NCBI GenBank assembly: GCA_030586155.1
Contig: CP130741.1
Coordinates: 248,001 to 312,000 of the forward strand
DNA length: 64,000 bases
Reading direction: 5' to 3'
Source of the DNA: Eubacteriaceae bacterium ES3
Lineage (GTDB): Bacteria; Bacillota; Clostridia; Eubacteriales; Eubacteriaceae
Shown here piece by piece: positions 820 to 36,542 of the stretch (positions are counted from its first letter, which is position 1; each line of letters starts with the position of its first letter). Made by a program: the position numbers and the translations under genes. The notes under the pieces are model-generated. The model made no database searches and was not told the DNA's origin. It saw nothing but the letters and a program-made list of their open reading frames with translations.

Positions 820-3396
820 GTGAATACGACAAAGGGAATGAAGCGGCAATGGCTCATTCCAATTATTTTAATTACGTTAATTGCGGTGATACTGCCTCAA
901 TACAGTGCAAGTCAGACAGTGCAGGCCAGCGGGGCGACAATTGTGGTTAATCCCGGACATTTGGATGGGGTAGATCCCGGAGCGGTGAACTCATCTCTGG
1001 GAATCCGGGAAGTGGATGTGAATAACGCTTTAGCTATCAAGGTTGTAACAACGTTGAGAAATGCCGGCTATAACGCCATGTTAAGTCATCCGATTCCCAA
1101 CAACCCGGGTCTTCCTACGCTTTTGTCCAGTGTCCCGGATTATAATGTATACTCCACGACAATCTGCAATACTGCCAATGAAATAGACGCAGACCTTCTA
1201 ATCAGTATTCATCATAATTCTGGATCTTCTTCCAGCAGCGGGGTTGAACTTTATTGGTCCAGCTATCATCCTTCTGTTGATAATGATGGGATTTATCAGG
1301 CTTATGGGCTTTGGTCCGGTGGAGTTTCTGCAGATTTAGACAGTACACCGCCAGCGATTGCAGTGGAATCCAAAGATTTGGCAGTCTTGTTTAATTCATA
1401 TTTCAAAAACCTGGGTTATGTTCCGTCCAATGGTCGGATTATTGAACGGGATGATGCCATTACCAGAAAAACCAGTATGCCTTCAGTACTGATTGAAGCG
1501 GGTTATCTTTCAAATAGTTCGGAAGCTCAGAAACTTACAAATGCTTCCAATCAACAGAAAATGGCGGATCAGATTCTGGCAGCTATCAATGAATGGATGG
1601 CTATTGTTCAACCAATGACTGCCGATTCAGTGAGTGCTAAGGTCAGCAATCAGACGATTACGGCTACAGTCAGTGGGATAACAGCTCCTAACGGAATCAG
1701 CAATATCTACTTTCCGACCTGGAGTGAAAAAGGTGGGCAGGATGATCTGTTCTGGTATAAGGGTATCAAACAGAGCGATGGTTCCTATAAAGTGGAAATT
1801 GATATAAGCAAACATAATGGCGATAGTGGCAATTATTTAATCCACTGTTATGGTGAGGATAAATCGGGTAAAACGACTTTCCTCGGCTCAACTGCGGCAA
1901 CTATTGGGGAGTCGAGGTCCGATCCAATGTCAGCTGAAGCGGTCACTGCTACAGCTGAAGATGGAATTATCAGTGTATCACTAACTGGAATAACATCGCC
2001 AAATGGATTGACTAAAGTTTTAGTACCAACCTGGAGTGAAAAAGACGGACAGGATGACCTGGTTTGGTATGAGGCGAAAAAACAGAGTGATGGCAGTTAC
2101 AAAGTGGAAATCGATACGGCTGATCACAAGCAGACAACAGGCAAATATATTATTCACTGCTATGGTGTTGATAATTATGGAACGACGACCTTTTTAGGAG
2201 CGGAAACGGTACAAGTTGGGACAATAATGGCAGCCAGTACGGTACAGGTTGAACTATCTGGTTCTGAAATTACAGTTAAACTCGGTGGGATTTCGGCCCC
2301 TAATGGTTTGGCGCGATTACTGGTTCCGACCTGGAGTGATAAAGACGGACAGGATGATTTAATCTGGTACGAGGCGAAAAAGCAGAGTGACGGATCTTAT
2401 CAGCTGACCATTGATATTAAGGACCATAAAGGGGATAGTGGTGTGTATAATATCCACTGTTATGGCGTTGATAATGACGGCGAGTACGTCTTGTTGGCTA
2501 CAAAAACGATTGATGTAAGCAGTGTGGAAGCGCCGGAAGAAGTACCAGAGGAAATGATAGCCGATTCAGTTTCAGCCAGTCTTTTGGGTAAGGAAATGAC
2601 GGTCTCTATTGAAGGGGTCGTTGCCCCCAACGGAATAAAAGAAATTCTGGTACCAACATGGAGTGAAGTAAATGGGCAGGACGATCTGGTCTGGTATAAG
2701 GCCGAGGAAATCGATGAGGAGACCTATGAACTGATAGTTGATGTCGATGACCATAACGGTGATATCGGAAACTATCATTTCCATGTTTATGGAGTGGAAA
2801 CCGATGGTTCGATTGTATTTTTAGGCGCGGCAACAGAGGAAATGCCTGAGCTTATACCGATTGCGGGCGATCCGCAGGTGACCGTTGATCAGCTGGTTGA
2901 AGCTTATGAAGACAGCGGGAAGACTTTTCCGGCGCTGTATATTGAGCGTGGAGTGGATTTAGAGACTTTCTGCCAGCTGTATTACGATGAAGCTGTGGCG
3001 GAAGGAATCCGACCGGAAGTGGCCTTTGCTCAGATGCTACTGGAAACCGGCTATCTTCAGTATGGTGGACAGGTAAAGGTGACGCAATTTAATTTTGCAG
3101 GTCTGGGTGCTGTAGATGGTGGAACTGGCGGATTCGATTTTGCTAAAGCTTACGGAGATGATAAAACCGGGATTCAAATGGGAATCCGTGGACATATTCA
3201 GCATTTAAAATGCTACGCTAACGATAAAGACCTGACCAATGAGAACGTTGATCCGCGATGGAATGAAAAGCTGCGTGGAAAAGCCGAATATCTTTACTGG
3301 TTAAGTATTCCTAATAATCCTTACGGAACAGGCTGGGCCTCTGACCCTAATTATGGAATTAAACTGAAAAATAAAATTAAGGACATAATGGAATAG
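820..3396 (+). CDS. Secreted N-acetylmuramoyl-L-alanine amidase with four GBS/Bsp-like repeats and a glucosaminidase domain
   Basis: This is an 858-residue exported peptidoglycan hydrolase with two catalytic domains. It starts at GTG 820 behind AAAGGAGA (806-813). Residues 1-36 are a signal peptide with a hydrophobic core. Residues ~40-262 are an Amidase_3 (zinc amidase) domain with likely ligands H47, E64 and H131 and catalytic E226. Four ~100-residue repeats begin near 266, 368, 470 and 579, each with a PTWSE-x-x-GQDDL core and ending near HCYG-VD; they resemble GBS Bsp-like repeats and probably bind the wall. Residues ~690-858 are a glucosaminidase domain that keeps the LLETGYLQYGG helix. 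It would cut both the stem-peptide bond and the glycan chain. The next gene has the same repeats. Confidence 0.9.
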   Translation: MNTTKGMKRQWLIPIILITLIAVILPQYSASQTVQASGATIVVNPGHLDGVDPGAVNSSLGIREVDVNNALAIKVVTTLRNAGYNAMLSHPIPNNPGLPTLLSSVPDYNVYSTTICNTANEIDADLLISIHHNSGSSSSSGVELYWSSYHPSVDNDGIYQAYGLWSGGVSADLDSTPPAIAVESKDLAVLFNSYFKNLGYVPSNGRIIERDDAITRKTSMPSVLIEAGYLSNSSEAQKLTNASNQQKMADQILAAINEWMAIVQPMTADSVSAKVSNQTITATVSGITAPNGISNIYFPTWSEKGGQDDLFWYKGIKQSDGSYKVEIDISKHNGDSGNYLIHCYGEDKSGKTTFLGSTAATIGESRSDPMSAEAVTATAEDGIISVSLTGITSPNGLTKVLVPTWSEKDGQDDLVWYEAKKQSDGSYKVEIDTADHKQTTGKYIIHCYGVDNYGTTTFLGAETVQVGTIMAASTVQVELSGSEITVKLGGISAPNGLARLLVPTWSDKDGQDDLIWYEAKKQSDGSYQLTIDIKDHKGDSGVYNIHCYGVDNDGEYVLLATKTIDVSSVEAPEEVPEEMIADSVSASLLGKEMTVSIEGVVAPNGIKEILVPTWSEVNGQDDLVWYKAEEIDEETYELIVDVDDHNGDIGNYHFHVYGVETDGSIVFLGAATEEMPELIPIAGDPQVTVDQLVEAYEDSGKTFPALYIERGVDLETFCQLYYDEAVAEGIRPEVAFAQMLLETGYLQYGGQVKVTQFNFAGLGAVDGGTGGFDFAKAYGDDKTGIQMGIRGHIQHLKCYANDKDLTNENVDPRWNEKLRGKAEYLYWLSIPNNPYGTGWASDPNYGIKLKNKIKDIME

Positions 3397-3400
3397 CATC

Positions 3401-3457
3401 AATGCCGTGGCCTTGCGGGGAACATAATTTGTTCCTCTGGCAAGGGCGGCATTTTTT
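3401..3457 (+). terminator. Rho-independent terminator after the amidase gene
   Basis: A long interrupted hairpin pairs AATGCCG (3401-3407) with CGGCATT (3447-3453), with further inner pairing (CCTTGC/GCAAGG, GGAACA/TGTTCC), and is followed by a T-run. It lies 4 bases after the stop codon. Confidence 0.85.
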
Positions 3458-3571
3458 CGTATGAATTGGGTCAAGAAAAAAGTTTGTTTTTTAGACGATA
3501 AAAATTATGTGACAGTCATATATTTAAATAGCTTTAATGAATAATTCTTGAAATAAAGGAGAACGCTGTCA

Positions 3572-5380
3572 GTGAGGAATGAAATAAAGGTGATAAAAAA
3601 AATATTGCCGATGATTATTGTTTTTACGTTATTTTTAACGGGGTCTGTTTTAGCGATTGAAACTGATGCAGGGGATATCACTTCAGAAGTAATTGAGACA
3701 GAAAACAGTTATAGTCTTGTAATCAGTGAAGCTGGAGGCAATCAGTTTCAGGTCAAAACAGTTGGCTTGAGCGATGAAGAAAATATTAACACAGTCACTT
3801 TTCCTGTCTGGACAGAAAGAAATGGTCAGGATGATATAATCTGGTACAATGGTGAATTGCAGAGTGATGGTGAGTATGCGCTTAAGGTTTCAATCAGCGA
3901 CCATCATTTTGAAACCGGAATGTATCATATCCATTGTTATATCGCAAAAAGGGATGGGACTATTCTGCCTGTACTGACCAAACAGTTTCAAAAAGAAAAA
4001 ACAAATTTTCAGATTGATGATCAAACGGTTATAGGTGATCAATATAATATTTTCTTTTCGGGAGTCAATAGCATTAATGGTGTCCAAGAGGTCTTAATCC
4101 CGACCTGGAGTGAAAGCGGAGGTCAGGATGATATACGCTGGGAAAAGGCGGATTATATCGGTGCAAACAGCTGGAAAGTCAGTATCAATCTTTCAAACTA
4201 CCAAAAAAGCTATGATCGATATTTAAGTCATATTTATTTAAAAGATTTAGATGGAAATTTAAATTTTCTTGGACAGACAAAAGAAACTATTGATAACCCA
4301 TTTTTGACGGAGTCTGTGAGCAGTAATCTATCACCTGATACAGAAAATATGAGATTTACCGTTTCAACCGCTAATCTTTCCACAAAAGCGGGGGTTAAGG
4401 ACGTATATTTTGCTGTTTGGACAGAACGTAACGGTCAGGATGAAATTAAATGGCTGGCGGGGACAAAAGTCGGAAATGAGTATCAGGCTGAGGTCAAACT
4501 TGAAGAGCATAACTTCGAAACTGGGAAATATAGTGTTCATACATATGTTTATGGTAGAGAAAATGAAATAATTTCGGTTGGGGCAGAAAGTCTTTCGGTT
4601 GAGAAGGCCACACCGATTATTGAATATGATAAGGCTGTTCTCGATAATATTTATAAAGTCAGGATAAAAGATGTCTCCAGCAGCAAGGGTGTTAATGCGG
4701 TTTTTCTGCCTACCTGGAGTCTAGATGGCGGACAGGATGACCTGCACTTTGAGCTGGCTTCATATCTTGGTGACAATACCTGGGAGGCAACAATTGATCT
4801 GGAAAAATATAATCATGTAGTAGATACATTTCCAACGCATGGTTATATTCAGAATCAGGAGGGGGGAATGGAATATCAAACTTGCAGTAACAAAGTGATT
4901 ACTCAGGATACCAGAACACTCTATGGTTTTTTTGCCTATCCGGTCAGCAAAAGCTACAAACCAAATGCCTCAGATCCGACTGACTGGTTTGGGCCAAGAT
5001 GGGGTGATATTCATGAAGGAGTTGATATACCGGCTCCCTACTACGCAAAATGTTATTCAGTTTGCAATGGTGTGGTGGAAAAAGCCGGATATTTTATGGG
5101 TTATGGCCGCTACATTAGAATCAGAACGGTAGACAGGTATGGTGAATCGGTATCATTCTTTTATGGTCATCTGCAGGAGATTAACGTTAGTGTCGGACAG
5201 ACTGTTTCGGAAGGCCAGGTTATTGGTTCGGTCGGAGGGTCGGGCTATAACAGCCAGAAAATTTATGTGGATAATGCCTATGGTCCACACCTCCACTTTG
5301 GGGCCATTGCCAATGCTGATGATGCCTGTGTCAATCCAGAAATTTGGATCAATTTTCACAATCCGTATAGTAATCGATGA
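3572..5380 (+). CDS. Secreted M23-family (LytM) peptidase with four GBS/Bsp-like repeats
   Basis: This is a 602-residue exported cell-wall endopeptidase. It starts at GTG 3572 behind AAAGGAG (3555-3561). A signal peptide of about 30 residues ends near the VLA site. Four tandem repeats (~45-140, 148-245, 248-345, 350-440) share the WTERNGQDD / WSxxGGQDD core with the preceding amidase. The C-terminus is a complete LytM domain: HEGVD gives H481 and D485, and the HLHFG motif gives H573 and H575, the usual Zn2+ and catalytic set. It would cleave peptide cross-bridges. The shared repeat architecture implies a common wall target and a duplicated binding module. The N-terminal two repeats are more diverged than those of the amidase. 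Confidence 0.9.
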   Translation: MRNEIKVIKKILPMIIVFTLFLTGSVLAIETDAGDITSEVIETENSYSLVISEAGGNQFQVKTVGLSDEENINTVTFPVWTERNGQDDIIWYNGELQSDGEYALKVSISDHHFETGMYHIHCYIAKRDGTILPVLTKQFQKEKTNFQIDDQTVIGDQYNIFFSGVNSINGVQEVLIPTWSESGGQDDIRWEKADYIGANSWKVSINLSNYQKSYDRYLSHIYLKDLDGNLNFLGQTKETIDNPFLTESVSSNLSPDTENMRFTVSTANLSTKAGVKDVYFAVWTERNGQDEIKWLAGTKVGNEYQAEVKLEEHNFETGKYSVHTYVYGRENEIISVGAESLSVEKATPIIEYDKAVLDNIYKVRIKDVSSSKGVNAVFLPTWSLDGGQDDLHFELASYLGDNTWEATIDLEKYNHVVDTFPTHGYIQNQEGGMEYQTCSNKVITQDTRTLYGFFAYPVSKSYKPNASDPTDWFGPRWGDIHEGVDIPAPYYAKCYSVCNGVVEKAGYFMGYGRYIRIRTVDRYGESVSFFYGHLQEINVSVGQTVSEGQVIGSVGGSGYNSQKIYVDNAYGPHLHFGAIANADDACVNPEIWINFHNPYSNR

Positions 5381-29117: not shown

Positions 29118-29246
29118 ATGGAAACTTTAAGAACTAACGTACAATATTATTATTTTAGCAACATCCAGAGCTATTGGTATGGCTTTGGTTATTTTGCGTG
29201 TAATAAAAAAACGTTACCCTCGAAGTTTTCAAACCATGAAAAGTGA
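29118..29246 (+). CDS. Aromatic-rich leader peptide of the aroF-tyrA attenuator
   Basis: This 42-codon reading frame starts at ATG 29118 behind GTGGAG. It codes for a Tyr-Tyr-Tyr-Phe run at residues 10-13 and a second cluster Y-W-Y-G-F-G-Y-F at 19-26, so 10 of 17 residues from 10 to 26 are aromatic. It lies between the promoter and an intrinsic terminator (29279) and upstream of DAHP synthase and prephenate dehydrogenase genes. This is the layout of ribosome-mediated attenuation: stalling at Tyr/Phe codons would favour read-through into aroF-tyrA. The antiterminator pairing was not worked out. Confidence 0.8.
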   Translation: METLRTNVQYYYFSNIQSYWYGFGYFACNKKTLPSKFSNHEK

Positions 29247-29278: not shown

Positions 29279-29308
29279 AGGAGACTTCCTTAGGGAGTCT
29301 CCTTTTTT
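29279..29308 (+). terminator. Attenuator terminator of the aroF leader
   Basis: A perfect 8-bp stem (29279-29286 with 29296-29303) followed by six T residues lies 33 bases after the leader-peptide stop. Confidence 0.88.
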
Positions 29309-29310
29309 CG

Positions 29311-29612
29311 TGAAAAATGAAGTCGTGCGAAGACAGTGGATTTGAACTGAGATTGAAAGTGTTTTTACTTTCAAGAACAGTTCAAGTTTACTGTCTTCAT
29401 AGGGCGAAGCCCGCGATGAGGTGTCGCGATAGCGACACCGAATGCACGGCTTGATTTTTGGCTCTGTATAGTTAGAGTTAAAAAGCCCGCGACGAGTGTA
29501 AGCTGCGCGAAACGAGTTCCATGGCAGAATTTTTCACCAAAGTGAAAATAGAAATCCCGCGATGAGGGCTATTTGAATAGCCGAAGCAGGAACGGTTTCA
29601 TTTTGTCTTCAG
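29311..29612 (+). repeat. Structured intergenic repeat, copy A (between the aroF attenuator and aroF)
   Basis: This unrecognised structured element begins two bases after the terminator T-run. Parts in order are: a 5' arm (29311-29328) complementary to 29444-29459; a long hairpin made of three nested stems (29329-29398; 9, 8 and 8 bp); a GGGC-GAA-GCCC hairpin (29402-29412); a conserved GCGATGAG; a perfect GGTGTCGC-GATA-GCGACACC hairpin (29420-29439); and a 3' arm ending in a GCACGGCTTGATTTTT motif. Two diverged units with CCCGCGAYGAG follow (about 29482-29540 and 29564-29612). The same architecture appears on the minus strand at 32934-33172. It does not code for protein. Confidence 0.7.
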
Positions 29613-29655
29613 TGCACGGGAGATGGATGAATGATTTTAAAATTTGGAGGATCAC

Positions 29656-32308: not shown

Positions 32309-32854
32309 TTAGGAATTGTTTGAACGAACTTTTGAAGCATCCAGGTTTAACTGAGTCTTTAAAGAAGCTGGAATAGCTCTAAATACCACTGCGCCAACAG
32401 CTGCATTAATTCCGCCTACCAAAGCTAGAGGAACCATCATTCCAACAACGCCGGGCCATGTCAGCATAGGGATTAAAAGTGGTGAGCTGAGCAGACATAA
32501 AACAGGACCATTAAACAGTGCAGCGACCAGTACTGAAATAATTAAACCAACATTTGTCTGATTGCGTTTGTTAAAAAGATTAAAGACGAACCATGTAGCA
32601 ATCATGGTAACACCCATTCCGATACCAATCAGAAAATGAACGGGAAAAGTAAAAGGGAACCCTGATGTTGCTGAGGTCAGTATGTGACCCGCAAAGCCGA
32701 TAATGGCACCATATACTGGGCCAAGTAAAAATGTACCTAAAAATGCCGGTAAAGAATCGAATGCAATCGTGCCGAATACTTTGAGTTGCGCGCCGATAAA
32801 AGATAAAGCGATTAAAAGGGCTGTGAATACCAGTTGTTTTGTTGAGATTTTCAT
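32309..32854 (-). CDS. cblT: ECF-type S component, predicted alpha-ribazole transporter CblT
   Basis: This 181-residue membrane protein has about six helices and the S-component look of an energy-coupling-factor transporter (MKISTKQLVFTALLIALSF, then the DSLPAFLGTFLLGPVYGAIIG region). Paired with the CblS-type kinase and behind a cobalamin riboswitch, it matches CblT, which imports alpha-ribazole for cobamide salvage. I chose ATG 32854, preceded by AAGGAGAAG; the frame extends to 33004, but only through repeat sequence. No ECF A or T subunits are in the window, so it would use a shared module. Confidence 0.85.
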   Translation of the reverse strand: MKISTKQLVFTALLIALSFIGAQLKVFGTIAFDSLPAFLGTFLLGPVYGAIIGFAGHILTSATSGFPFTFPVHFLIGIGMGVTMIATWFVFNLFNKRNQTNVGLIISVLVAALFNGPVLCLLSSPLLIPMLTWPGVVGMMVPLALVGGINAAVGAVVFRAIPASLKTQLNLDASKVRSNNS

Positions 32855-32933
32855 AATCTTCTCCTTGAAAAATAATTTTTTAATAAATAGTTTGGGATGA
32901 ATAGAAGCATATGGACAGCTATTTATTTCCAGC

Positions 32934-33172
32934 ATATACAGCGGTGAAAAATTAAGCCGTGCACTGGGTGTGGCTATCACCTCACCTTGTTGCGGGCTAC
33001 GCATTTCTCACATATACAGCGGTGAAAAATTAAGCCGTGCACTCGGTGTGGCTATCGCCCCACCTCGTCGCGGGCTACGCCCTATATCTTCTGATATAAG
33101 AGAACTGATTTATAAGCGAGCTTCTAAATCAGTTCTCTTATATCAGAAGACGTACGGCTTTATTTTTCGCGC
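32934..33172 (-). repeat. Structured intergenic repeat, copy B (between the cobalamin-riboswitch terminator and cblT)
   Basis: This is the same architecture as copy A, on the minus strand. Reading from 33172: a GAAAAATAAAGCCGTAC 5' arm; a perfect 25-bp hairpin (33125-33149 with 33088-33112); a GGGC-GTA-GCCC hairpin; GCGACGAG; a GGTGGGGC-GATA-GCCACACC hairpin; and a 3' arm GCACGGCTTAATTTTTC that pairs with the 5' arm. A second tandem unit follows: the 70-base blocks 33012-33081 and 32934-33003 differ at six positions, several within the stem. It starts directly after the T-run of the riboswitch terminator. It has no coding potential of its own. Confidence 0.72.
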
Positions 33173-33203
33173 AAAAAAGTCCACACCTATAAAAGATGTG
33201 AAC
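33173..33203 (-). terminator. Terminator of the cobalamin riboswitch expression platform
   Basis: On the minus strand an 8-bp stem (GTTCACAT with GTGTGGAC, two G.U pairs) is followed by six T residues. It sits just after the aptamer, so ligand binding would stop transcription before cblT. Confidence 0.8.
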
Positions 33204-33214
33204 TTTACCGTCGT

Positions 33215-33380
33215 CCAAAATCGCTACGGTTCTGGCAGGTCTCCTGAGTTAGCTTCATCACCATTTGTCCCTTCCCGTGAGGTGGTTTTGACAATGGCTC
33301 CGGCAATACAGTGGTGGGTCCCTACAGGAATGATACCTGTTTCCCTATTCTCCTTATAAAAGGCACCAGAAACGATTTAT
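33215..33380 (-). promoter_or_regulatory. Cobalamin riboswitch upstream of cblT-cblS
   Basis: On the minus strand the aptamer shows the classic cobalamin-box features in order: TCTGGTGCC at the 5' side, GGGAATAGGGAAACAGGT-like and GGGACCCACCACTGTA segments, TTGCCGGAGCC, GGGAAGG, GATGAAGC, and the strongly conserved TCAGGAGACCTGCC box. The ends pair to form P1 (TTCTGG with CCAGAA). It should respond to coenzyme B12 and regulate alpha-ribazole uptake and kinase genes through the following terminator. The exact ends are approximate. Confidence 0.93.
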
Positions 33381-33406
33381 TAAATTGAAAAAATAATAAC
33401 ATAGGG

Positions 33407-36412: not shown

Positions 36413-36423
36413 AATAAAGCTAG

Positions 36424-36464
36424 AAATTAAGTTGTGCGTTTTTTAACGTACAGCTTAATTTTTT
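36424..36464 (+). terminator. Terminator after pabC
   Basis: AAATTAAG pairs with CTTAATTT (36454-36461), with further inner pairing, followed by a T-run. Confidence 0.78.
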
Positions 36465-36542
36465 ATGGTTAGATGGAGTAGCTGTGATTGAAGAAAGTCT
36501 TTTTTTGTGGTAGCATGGCAAAAAGAGGAAAAGGAGATCGGA

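Follow-up and report, generated by a model that had tools for sequence, protein, structure and literature searches.

A dispersed structured repeat behind the aroF attenuator of Eubacteriaceae bacterium ES3 and its relatives in Clostridia

The window analysed here, a stretch of 64,000 nucleotides from Eubacteriaceae bacterium ES3 (contig CP130741.1, positions 248,001 to 312,000), carries a structured insertion between the attenuator terminator of the aroF leader and aroF. This insertion (copy A) probably belongs to a dispersed, non-autonomous, mobile-like family of the MITE/BOX kind which prefers transcript 3' ends and is moved in trans. The family is multicopy and shares a covarying fold of four stems (P1 to P4), the insertion is absent from the aroF locus of the closest relative, and the copies lie preferentially behind terminators and 5S rRNA genes, in one orientation. 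The basic unit is non-coding, about 150 nt long and often lengthened by tandem 3' modules. The first-pass annotation of this DNA had suggested, among other readings, a small mobile element targeting terminators, and this suggestion is well supported by the many dispersed copies, the empty site in the closest relative and the one-sided association with terminators described below.

Copy A in the aroF leader

The attenuator terminator ends in TTTTTT at position 29308 and CGTGAAAAATGAAGTCGTGC starts directly after it. At the aroF locus (L159) of genome G006, the nearest relative, whose AroF is 92% identical, only 5 nt separate the T-run from TCTTCAGTGCAC compared with 297 nt in the window, a net gain of 292 nt. 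On the 3' side the host leader resumes at 29606 (TCTTCAG...), with an uncertainty of about 5 nt in the boundary of copy A. The same terminator is kept in relatives without the element. The annotation had drawn the element at 29311-29612, starting two bases past the T-run; the insertion stands, its limits are now 29309-29605 by comparison with G006, and it begins at the T-run itself. Copy A is composite, with a full repeat unit (the first approximately 156 nt, to about 29468) followed by two degraded partial 3' modules. The features are as follows.

29280-29308, plus strand: intrinsic terminator (attenuator) of the aroF leader with its T-run, the insertion target (hairpin of -11.9 kcal/mol plus T-run)
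29309-29605, plus strand: copy A, whole insertion, one full unit and two partial, degraded 3' modules
29308-29463, plus strand: full-length covariance-model match of copy A (R1 139.3 bits, E 2.2e-34, copy A itself being one of the nine R1 sequences; R2 125.8 bits)
29313-29328, plus strand: P1 5' strand, terminal inverted repeat (sequence, consensus fold)
29329-29398, plus strand: P2, long hairpin with copy-specific complementary arms
29402-29412, plus strand: P3 mini-hairpin GGGC-GAA-GCCC, GGGCGAAGCCC
29413-29420, plus strand: conserved junction GCGAYGAG, GCGATGAG
29420-29439, plus strand: P4 hairpin with a GATA loop
29444-29459, plus strand: P1 3' strand
29460-29468, plus strand: 3' tail, CTCTGTA-like, common to several copies (by eye)
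29479-29605, plus strand: two extra degraded 3' modules (GCGACGAG at 29489-29496; GCGATGAG at 29559-29566)
33021-33172, minus strand: copy B, full unit, directly behind the terminator following a cobalamin riboswitch (R2 134.6 bits)
32925-33020, minus strand: second, partial module of copy B in tandem, belonging to the 78-nt direct repeat D5

Upstream of the terminator, 29118-29246 (plus strand) encodes the aroF leader peptide METLRTNVQYYYFSNIQSYWYGFGYFACNKKTLPSKFSNHEK, which is rich in Tyr, Phe and Trp and looks like a case of aromatic-amino-acid attenuation. Similar leaders precede aroF in relatives (by eye).

Fold and covariation

Folded as RNA, positions 29311-29625 reached -127 kcal/mol, compared with a mean of -83.1 (sd 5.2) for 100 shuffled sequences, none of which was as good (z -8.4). 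In the consensus fold of nine aligned copies the closing stem P1 encloses P2, the P3 mini-hairpin, GCGAYGAG and P4, and 27 of the 53 pairs have at least one both-side change. In a control count on these copies 93.4% of the cells pair, versus a mean of 74.0% after shuffling and 34-47% in slid versions, the slid control favouring a structure that was derived from the same nine copies. The covariation score was 0.564 versus 0.167 in the control, and none of 500 shuffles reached any of the five measures. Both-side changes occur in all 22 pairs of P2, P3 is invariant, and P1 varies little, with 90.6% of the cells paired over 16 pairs, which indicates that terminal inverted repeats are present. All features noted in the first pass (complementary ends, hairpins, a GGGC-GNA-GCCC mini-hairpin, GCGAYGAG and the GATA-loop stem) were found at the coordinates of P1 to P4.

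The fold was recovered from other genera as well. MAFFT and RNAalifold, applied to twelve sequences (ten Lachnospiraceae-type and two from the order, P3 and the P2 loop being fixed by the search pattern in ten of the twelve), predicted P1, P2 and P3 again, with both-side changes in 21 of 30 pairs; P4 was not predicted in this set. In 55 diverse matches both-side changes were counted in 47 of the 53 pairs, including 15 of the 16 in P1, a count that leans towards the fold because the sequences were fitted to R1.

Copy B and the rest of the window

Copy B lies on the minus strand, from 33172 to about 32925, and the cobalamin riboswitch upstream of it was located by Rfam at 33217-33385 on the same strand. 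The annotation had regarded copy B as keeping the pairing with changed stem sequences; comparison of the two copies, together with the nine-copy alignment and consensus fold, demonstrated that it is real and that the pairing is kept. Copies A and B are the only strong R2 matches in the window, a third match at 36418-36468 having an E of 0.57. Two open reading frames, 32970-33359 (plus strand) and the N-terminus of 32309-33004 (minus strand), run into copy B; the former is probably not a gene, and the real start of the latter is probably downstream, at MKISTKQLVF. Elsewhere in the window the direct repeats D1 and D3, within 1705-4759 (plus strand), are spread across two long reading frames, 820-3396 and 3572-5380, and probably represent a repeat domain in two neighbouring proteins.

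Copies in the genome and across Clostridia

In the whole genome of ES3 (3.39 Mb), BLASTN with copy A returned 26 places, copy A included, and the motif GCCCGCGAYGAG occurred 32 times, with no occurrence of the reversed control pattern. The covariance model R1, built from nine copies of this genome alone, gave 56 matches at E <= 1; the best 25 of these (E <= 2.2e-9), three of which are near-identical and lie behind 5S rRNA, served as the working set and are called the own copies below. Among 41 genomes (ES3 included), 24 had an R1 match at E <= 0.001. These comprised 19 of 19 genomes of the genus, with only a partial match in G007 (E 6.6e-4), and 5 of 22 genomes outside it. The genus is called Acetobacterium here because loci are common to contigs named A. 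bakii and A. wieringae. The further structured copies in related genomes that the first-pass annotation had looked to were thus found by the covariance-model search.

A pattern that combined the P2 loop with P3 and the opening bases of the junction matched 40 stretches in a collection of species genomes. Thirty-eight of them are in Clostridia, mostly in Lachnospiraceae MAGs and partly in genomes already searched, and the two outside Clostridia were judged chance and dropped. R1 matched all 38 loci at E <= 0.01, the pattern having left out P1, the P2 arms and P4. Class-wide, R2 found the element in at least 24 of 391 genomes and at least 16 of 223 sampled genera, acetogens included, at E <= 1e-6; with at most seven candidates scored per genome, the copy numbers are lower limits. 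A scan of viral contigs with one pattern gave no match. In draft genomes the matches L091, L100, L115, L178 and L183 begin less than 200 bases from the end of a contig, which is what breakage of assemblies at near-identical repeats would produce.

The structured-repeat family is apparently undescribed. With Rfam 15 at the gathering score, no family was found over the element in the window and 40 loci, so the annotation's refuting condition of a match to a known Rfam family did not arise. At E <= 1 in six loci, only mir-1012 (E 0.26), mir-988 (0.69) and Bacilli-1 (0.07) appeared, over P2 or the second module and far below the gathering score; these matches were judged chance and rejected. In a literature search conducted largely outside subscription journals, none of the papers listed had a title or abstract opening pointing to this element.

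Location of the copies behind transcript ends

The positions of the copies were compared with a terminator test (a T-run within 14 nt and a single hairpin of <= -6 kcal/mol). With this test, which had been loosened on these same copies, 16 of the 25 own copies lie behind a terminator-like structure, as do 34 of 1147 positions chosen at random. In four of these 16 cases the structure is a 5S rRNA end, and in two it lies at a distance of 7-12 nt. A stricter first version had given 8 of 25 versus 173 of 11412 and missed terminators visible by eye. At the mirror position downstream of the copies only 2 of 25 passed. Applied unchanged, the test was passed by 14 of 17 copies in G006 (three of the 20 loci are omitted as having no upstream sequence), a count which is not independent of that for ES3 because eight sites are occupied in both genomes, and by 5 of 20 copies from eight genomes outside the genus.

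Ends of known RNAs (Rfam gathering scores) lie within approximately 50 nt upstream of nine of the 25 own copies, namely c-di-GMP-I, cobalamin, M-box, T-box, four 5S rRNAs and one tRNA. A T-box before L061 scored 89.8 bits, just under the threshold of 93. Outside the genus, three of the 20 copies begin at a tRNA 3' end (L286, L288 and L290, of which L286 and L123 are one locus). A stop codon, defined as one closing at least 80 open codons, lies no more than 20 nt from the start of 7 of these 20 copies versus 5.3% of random positions, of 7 of the 28 usable listed loci among the 38 of the pattern scan versus 5.2%, and of 4 of the 25 own copies versus 3.9%. What these sites seem to have in common is a gene or transcript that ends there and has the same orientation as the element. 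As a consequence of the terminator preference, copies separate riboswitches or T-boxes from their genes, and there they can alter leader RNAs.

In eight Lachnospiraceae-type loci (L118, L124, L130, L142, L144, L145, L146 and L154) the element starts at ACGCG some 2 nt downstream of a TATAAT box, and in L118 and L142 a similar stretch also follows the 3' end. This box may be a promoter, a target or a duplication.

Sites with and without the element

Among 17 aroF loci, this element occurs in ES3 only. Six loci (L159 and L170-L174) have no extra stretch at all. In ten genomes of the genus (L160-L169) another stretch, of about 83 nt (length measured in five, judged by eye in the rest), lies directly behind the same aroF terminator. 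It reads CGCAAGGC...AGCTTGCG, with a second hairpin in L160, and is possibly a second element at the same site.

ES3 (G000) and G006 both carry the element at eight loci whose flanks are homologous on one side or both, so many insertions are old. Behind a cobalamin riboswitch, G006 has a two-unit copy and ES3 a decayed remnant. Together with the empty aroF site, these comparisons of sequence indicate a family that is dynamic here, yet not young. The clean pair with and without the element is a single one (aroF), in which copy A is composite. A flank search for empty sites gave three places for six sites, one a deletion remnant and one without a usable alignment, and for a seventh candidate (L181 versus L234) the alignment stops short of the insertion point. 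Observations on target duplication are confined to the composite aroF pair and to direct repeats that appear, on visual inspection, to flank some Lachnospiraceae copies.

Variation of the P2 arms and the folding strand

From the 5' end to GCGAYGAG, twelve copies measure 107-111 nt, while the P2 sequence varies by copy. In 133 P2 hairpins, tandem and decayed ones included, an alignment treating G.T and A.C alike yielded 3242 Watson-Crick, 120 G.T, 28 A.C and 242 other pairs. The corresponding numbers for 62 representatives below 80% identity were 1443, 49, 10 and 96, short or poorly paired hairpins having been dropped and the three innermost pairs left out. In four G000/G006 pairs of copies, chosen for equal length (L183/L071 being comparable over the last 16 nt upstream only), P2 showed 26 both-side, compensated changes, 1 wobble and 4 broken pairs; the three with homologous flanks (L186/L078, L113/L070 and L190/L079) contributed 18, 1 and 4. 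These changes fit selection for a paired stem, arm-to-arm copying, or both. At three shared sites (L175/L060, L185/L061 and L182/L072) the P2 arms are wholly different. This could reflect wholesale arm replacement, but when the conserved parts are compared with all 25 own copies these pairs rank only 4, 2 and 1, and two separate insertions downstream of one terminator are no less likely.

The excess of G.T over A.C (p 3e-7 versus 1:1, 0.008 versus 2:1) suggests that it is the sense strand that folds, an asymmetry that may be partly compositional. Before controls, the sense strand was the more stable one in 44 of 57 cases with RNA parameters and in 57 of 57 with DNA parameters. With controls, in 36 copies, the RNA energy difference was not significant (p 0.12 versus flanks, 0.19 versus shuffles), and with DNA parameters the sense strand was more stable in 36 of 36 (p 4.5e-7 versus flanks and a weak 0.013 versus shuffles). 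The GNA loop of P3 was rejected as the cause of the DNA result in this energy model. Because the RNA control was not significant, the folded form may be RNA, single-stranded DNA or cruciform DNA.

Alternative readings

The DNA energies would suit a REP/REPIN-like element mobilised in single-stranded DNA form by an HUH transposase (Y1, RAYT-like), as would the P3 core GCGNAGC, which we take to resemble extra-stable DNA mini-hairpins. Of 41 genomes, 35 have Y1_Tnp matches, many of them in reading frames of some 255-320 aa, but G018 (81% complete), G019 and G023 have an element match, a weak one in G023 (E 3.4e-4), and no Y1 match. Moreover, in 22 Y1 loci (all 3 of ES3 and 19 of relatives, searched over 1.5 kb on each side where the contig allows) no element match was found at E <= 1, and an arrangement with a Y1 gene as in REPtrons was rejected on this count. 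According to the portion of the published description used here, REPs occur as tandem palindromic modules at the 3' ends of genes and at stop codons, their termini sometimes supplying the stop codon, which is a likeness to the present element (PMC3733652). In the same portion, however, a REP is a palindrome of 20-40 bp with an unpaired GTAG or CGTC tag, and CGTC-tagged REPs have stems of 8-9 bp with nearly all A/T in the first two pairs and are reported from five phyla, Firmicutes not among them (PMC3733652). These stems and tags do not fit, since here a 4-bp G/C stem lies inside a larger fold and CGTC appears only as the complement within GCGACGAG. We regard this reading as unlikely, albeit the strongest of the alternatives.

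The annotation had also considered a regulatory RNA module. In its general form this would be a functional RNA for mRNA processing, stabilisation or secondary control between riboswitch-type terminators and genes, P2 being an RNase III site in read-through transcripts. The strong fold, its covariation and the several copies that follow a riboswitch, T-box or attenuator terminator are in keeping with such a role, and the compensated P2 changes between ES3 and G006 (26 to 1 wobble and 4 broken) as well as the G.T excess of 49 to 10 in the dissimilar hairpins are what it would leave, the possible compositional share of the latter weighing against it. Other copies lie behind 5S rRNA, tRNA or terminators, where little transcription would be expected, and the element is absent from all 16 other aroF leaders; for a module at aroF there is no positive support. 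Such a function of the family appears improbable.

Terminators are also the insertion sites of group IIC introns, which lie downstream of them in the same orientation. A reduced retroelement related to these introns and placed there by reverse splicing would share this preference, and AGCCGTGC...GCACGGCT presumably is vaguely like domain V, but this reading is highly improbable, as the element is non-coding and only about 150 nt long, P1 encloses a three-hairpin junction, and Intron_gpII was found neither in the genome, nor in the copies at the gathering score, nor at E <= 1 in six loci. RF00029 (group II intron domain V/VI) was absent from the genome of ES3, whereas the positive control found it in 4 of 14 genomes. 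The annotation's likening to group IIC introns thus holds only for the target preference.

Comparison with MITE and BOX elements and a proposed mode of movement

We rate the element as working like a MITE or BOX, that is, as a multi-helix structured repeat preferring terminators and other gene ends, BOX and REP being compared by description. The MITEs bcr1, RUP and NEMIS are described, in the portions of the sources used here, as non-coding elements of 70-300 nt with terminal inverted repeats and a stable fold (PMC3733652, PMC10969869). The present element shares their size, inverted repeats, lack of coding capacity and stable fold, and differs in its multi-helix fold with copy-specific P2 arms and in that no partner with the same ends was found in its own genome. 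BOX of Streptococcus pneumoniae, as described in part of PMC3049150, is a small, dispersed, modular repeat with paired ends and repeatable units, presumed to be a non-autonomous mobile element, and in one case it forms a composite structure with T boxes. These traits recur here. BOX, however, is defined by boxA, boxB and boxC sequences, to which the comparison extends by description only, and it repeats the inner boxB, whereas here the 3' part (P3-GCGAYGAG-P4-P1') is repeated; a terminator preference is absent from that part of the BOX description (PMC3049150).

The mobiliser was not found through Intron_gpII, Y1-linked copies or facing P1 ends. The P1 end pattern occurs at 34 places in the genome of ES3 (reversed control, 2), and among the places listed no facing ends lie 0.3-5 kb apart, as an autonomous partner with the same ends would show. 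Movement in trans is ascribed to a putative enzyme, which would act on a folded single strand by recognising its conserved ends, P3 and GCGAYGAG. P2 would need only to be a long paired stem, and we propose that its arms drift in compensated steps because only long pairing is required. Recognition of a stem-loop or T-run junction would lead to target choice behind a hairpin and T-run, and insertion behind a terminator or stop codon would cost the host little. At aroF, read-through of the attenuator would transcribe the element and add about 300 nt to the leader RNA. Weighing against the MITE/BOX-like reading, mobility is deduced from sequence comparison, and nine of the 25 own copies and 15 of the 20 outside the genus fail the terminator test. 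More broadly, and rather tentatively, Clostridia could possess mobile folded elements whose machinery, with a new enzyme, recognises the 3' ends of transcription units (a terminator hairpin with its T-run, 5S or tRNA ends, or stop codons) and, in a mobile form that is a folded single strand, reads the ends, P3 and GCGAYGAG by sequence and P2 by structure. The copy-specific yet paired P2 arms constitute a natural experiment on the evolution of long palindromes and a test of reading as RNA versus single-stranded DNA.

Among the solitary matches of the P1 end pattern, the one inspected, in L254 (about 1465-1520, minus strand; near 917517 in the genome of ES3), is a shrunken copy consisting of P1 and a short hairpin. 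It lies behind a T-box-like terminator (by eye; not reported by Rfam at the gathering score), and the gene that follows was read as glycyl-tRNA-synthetase-like.
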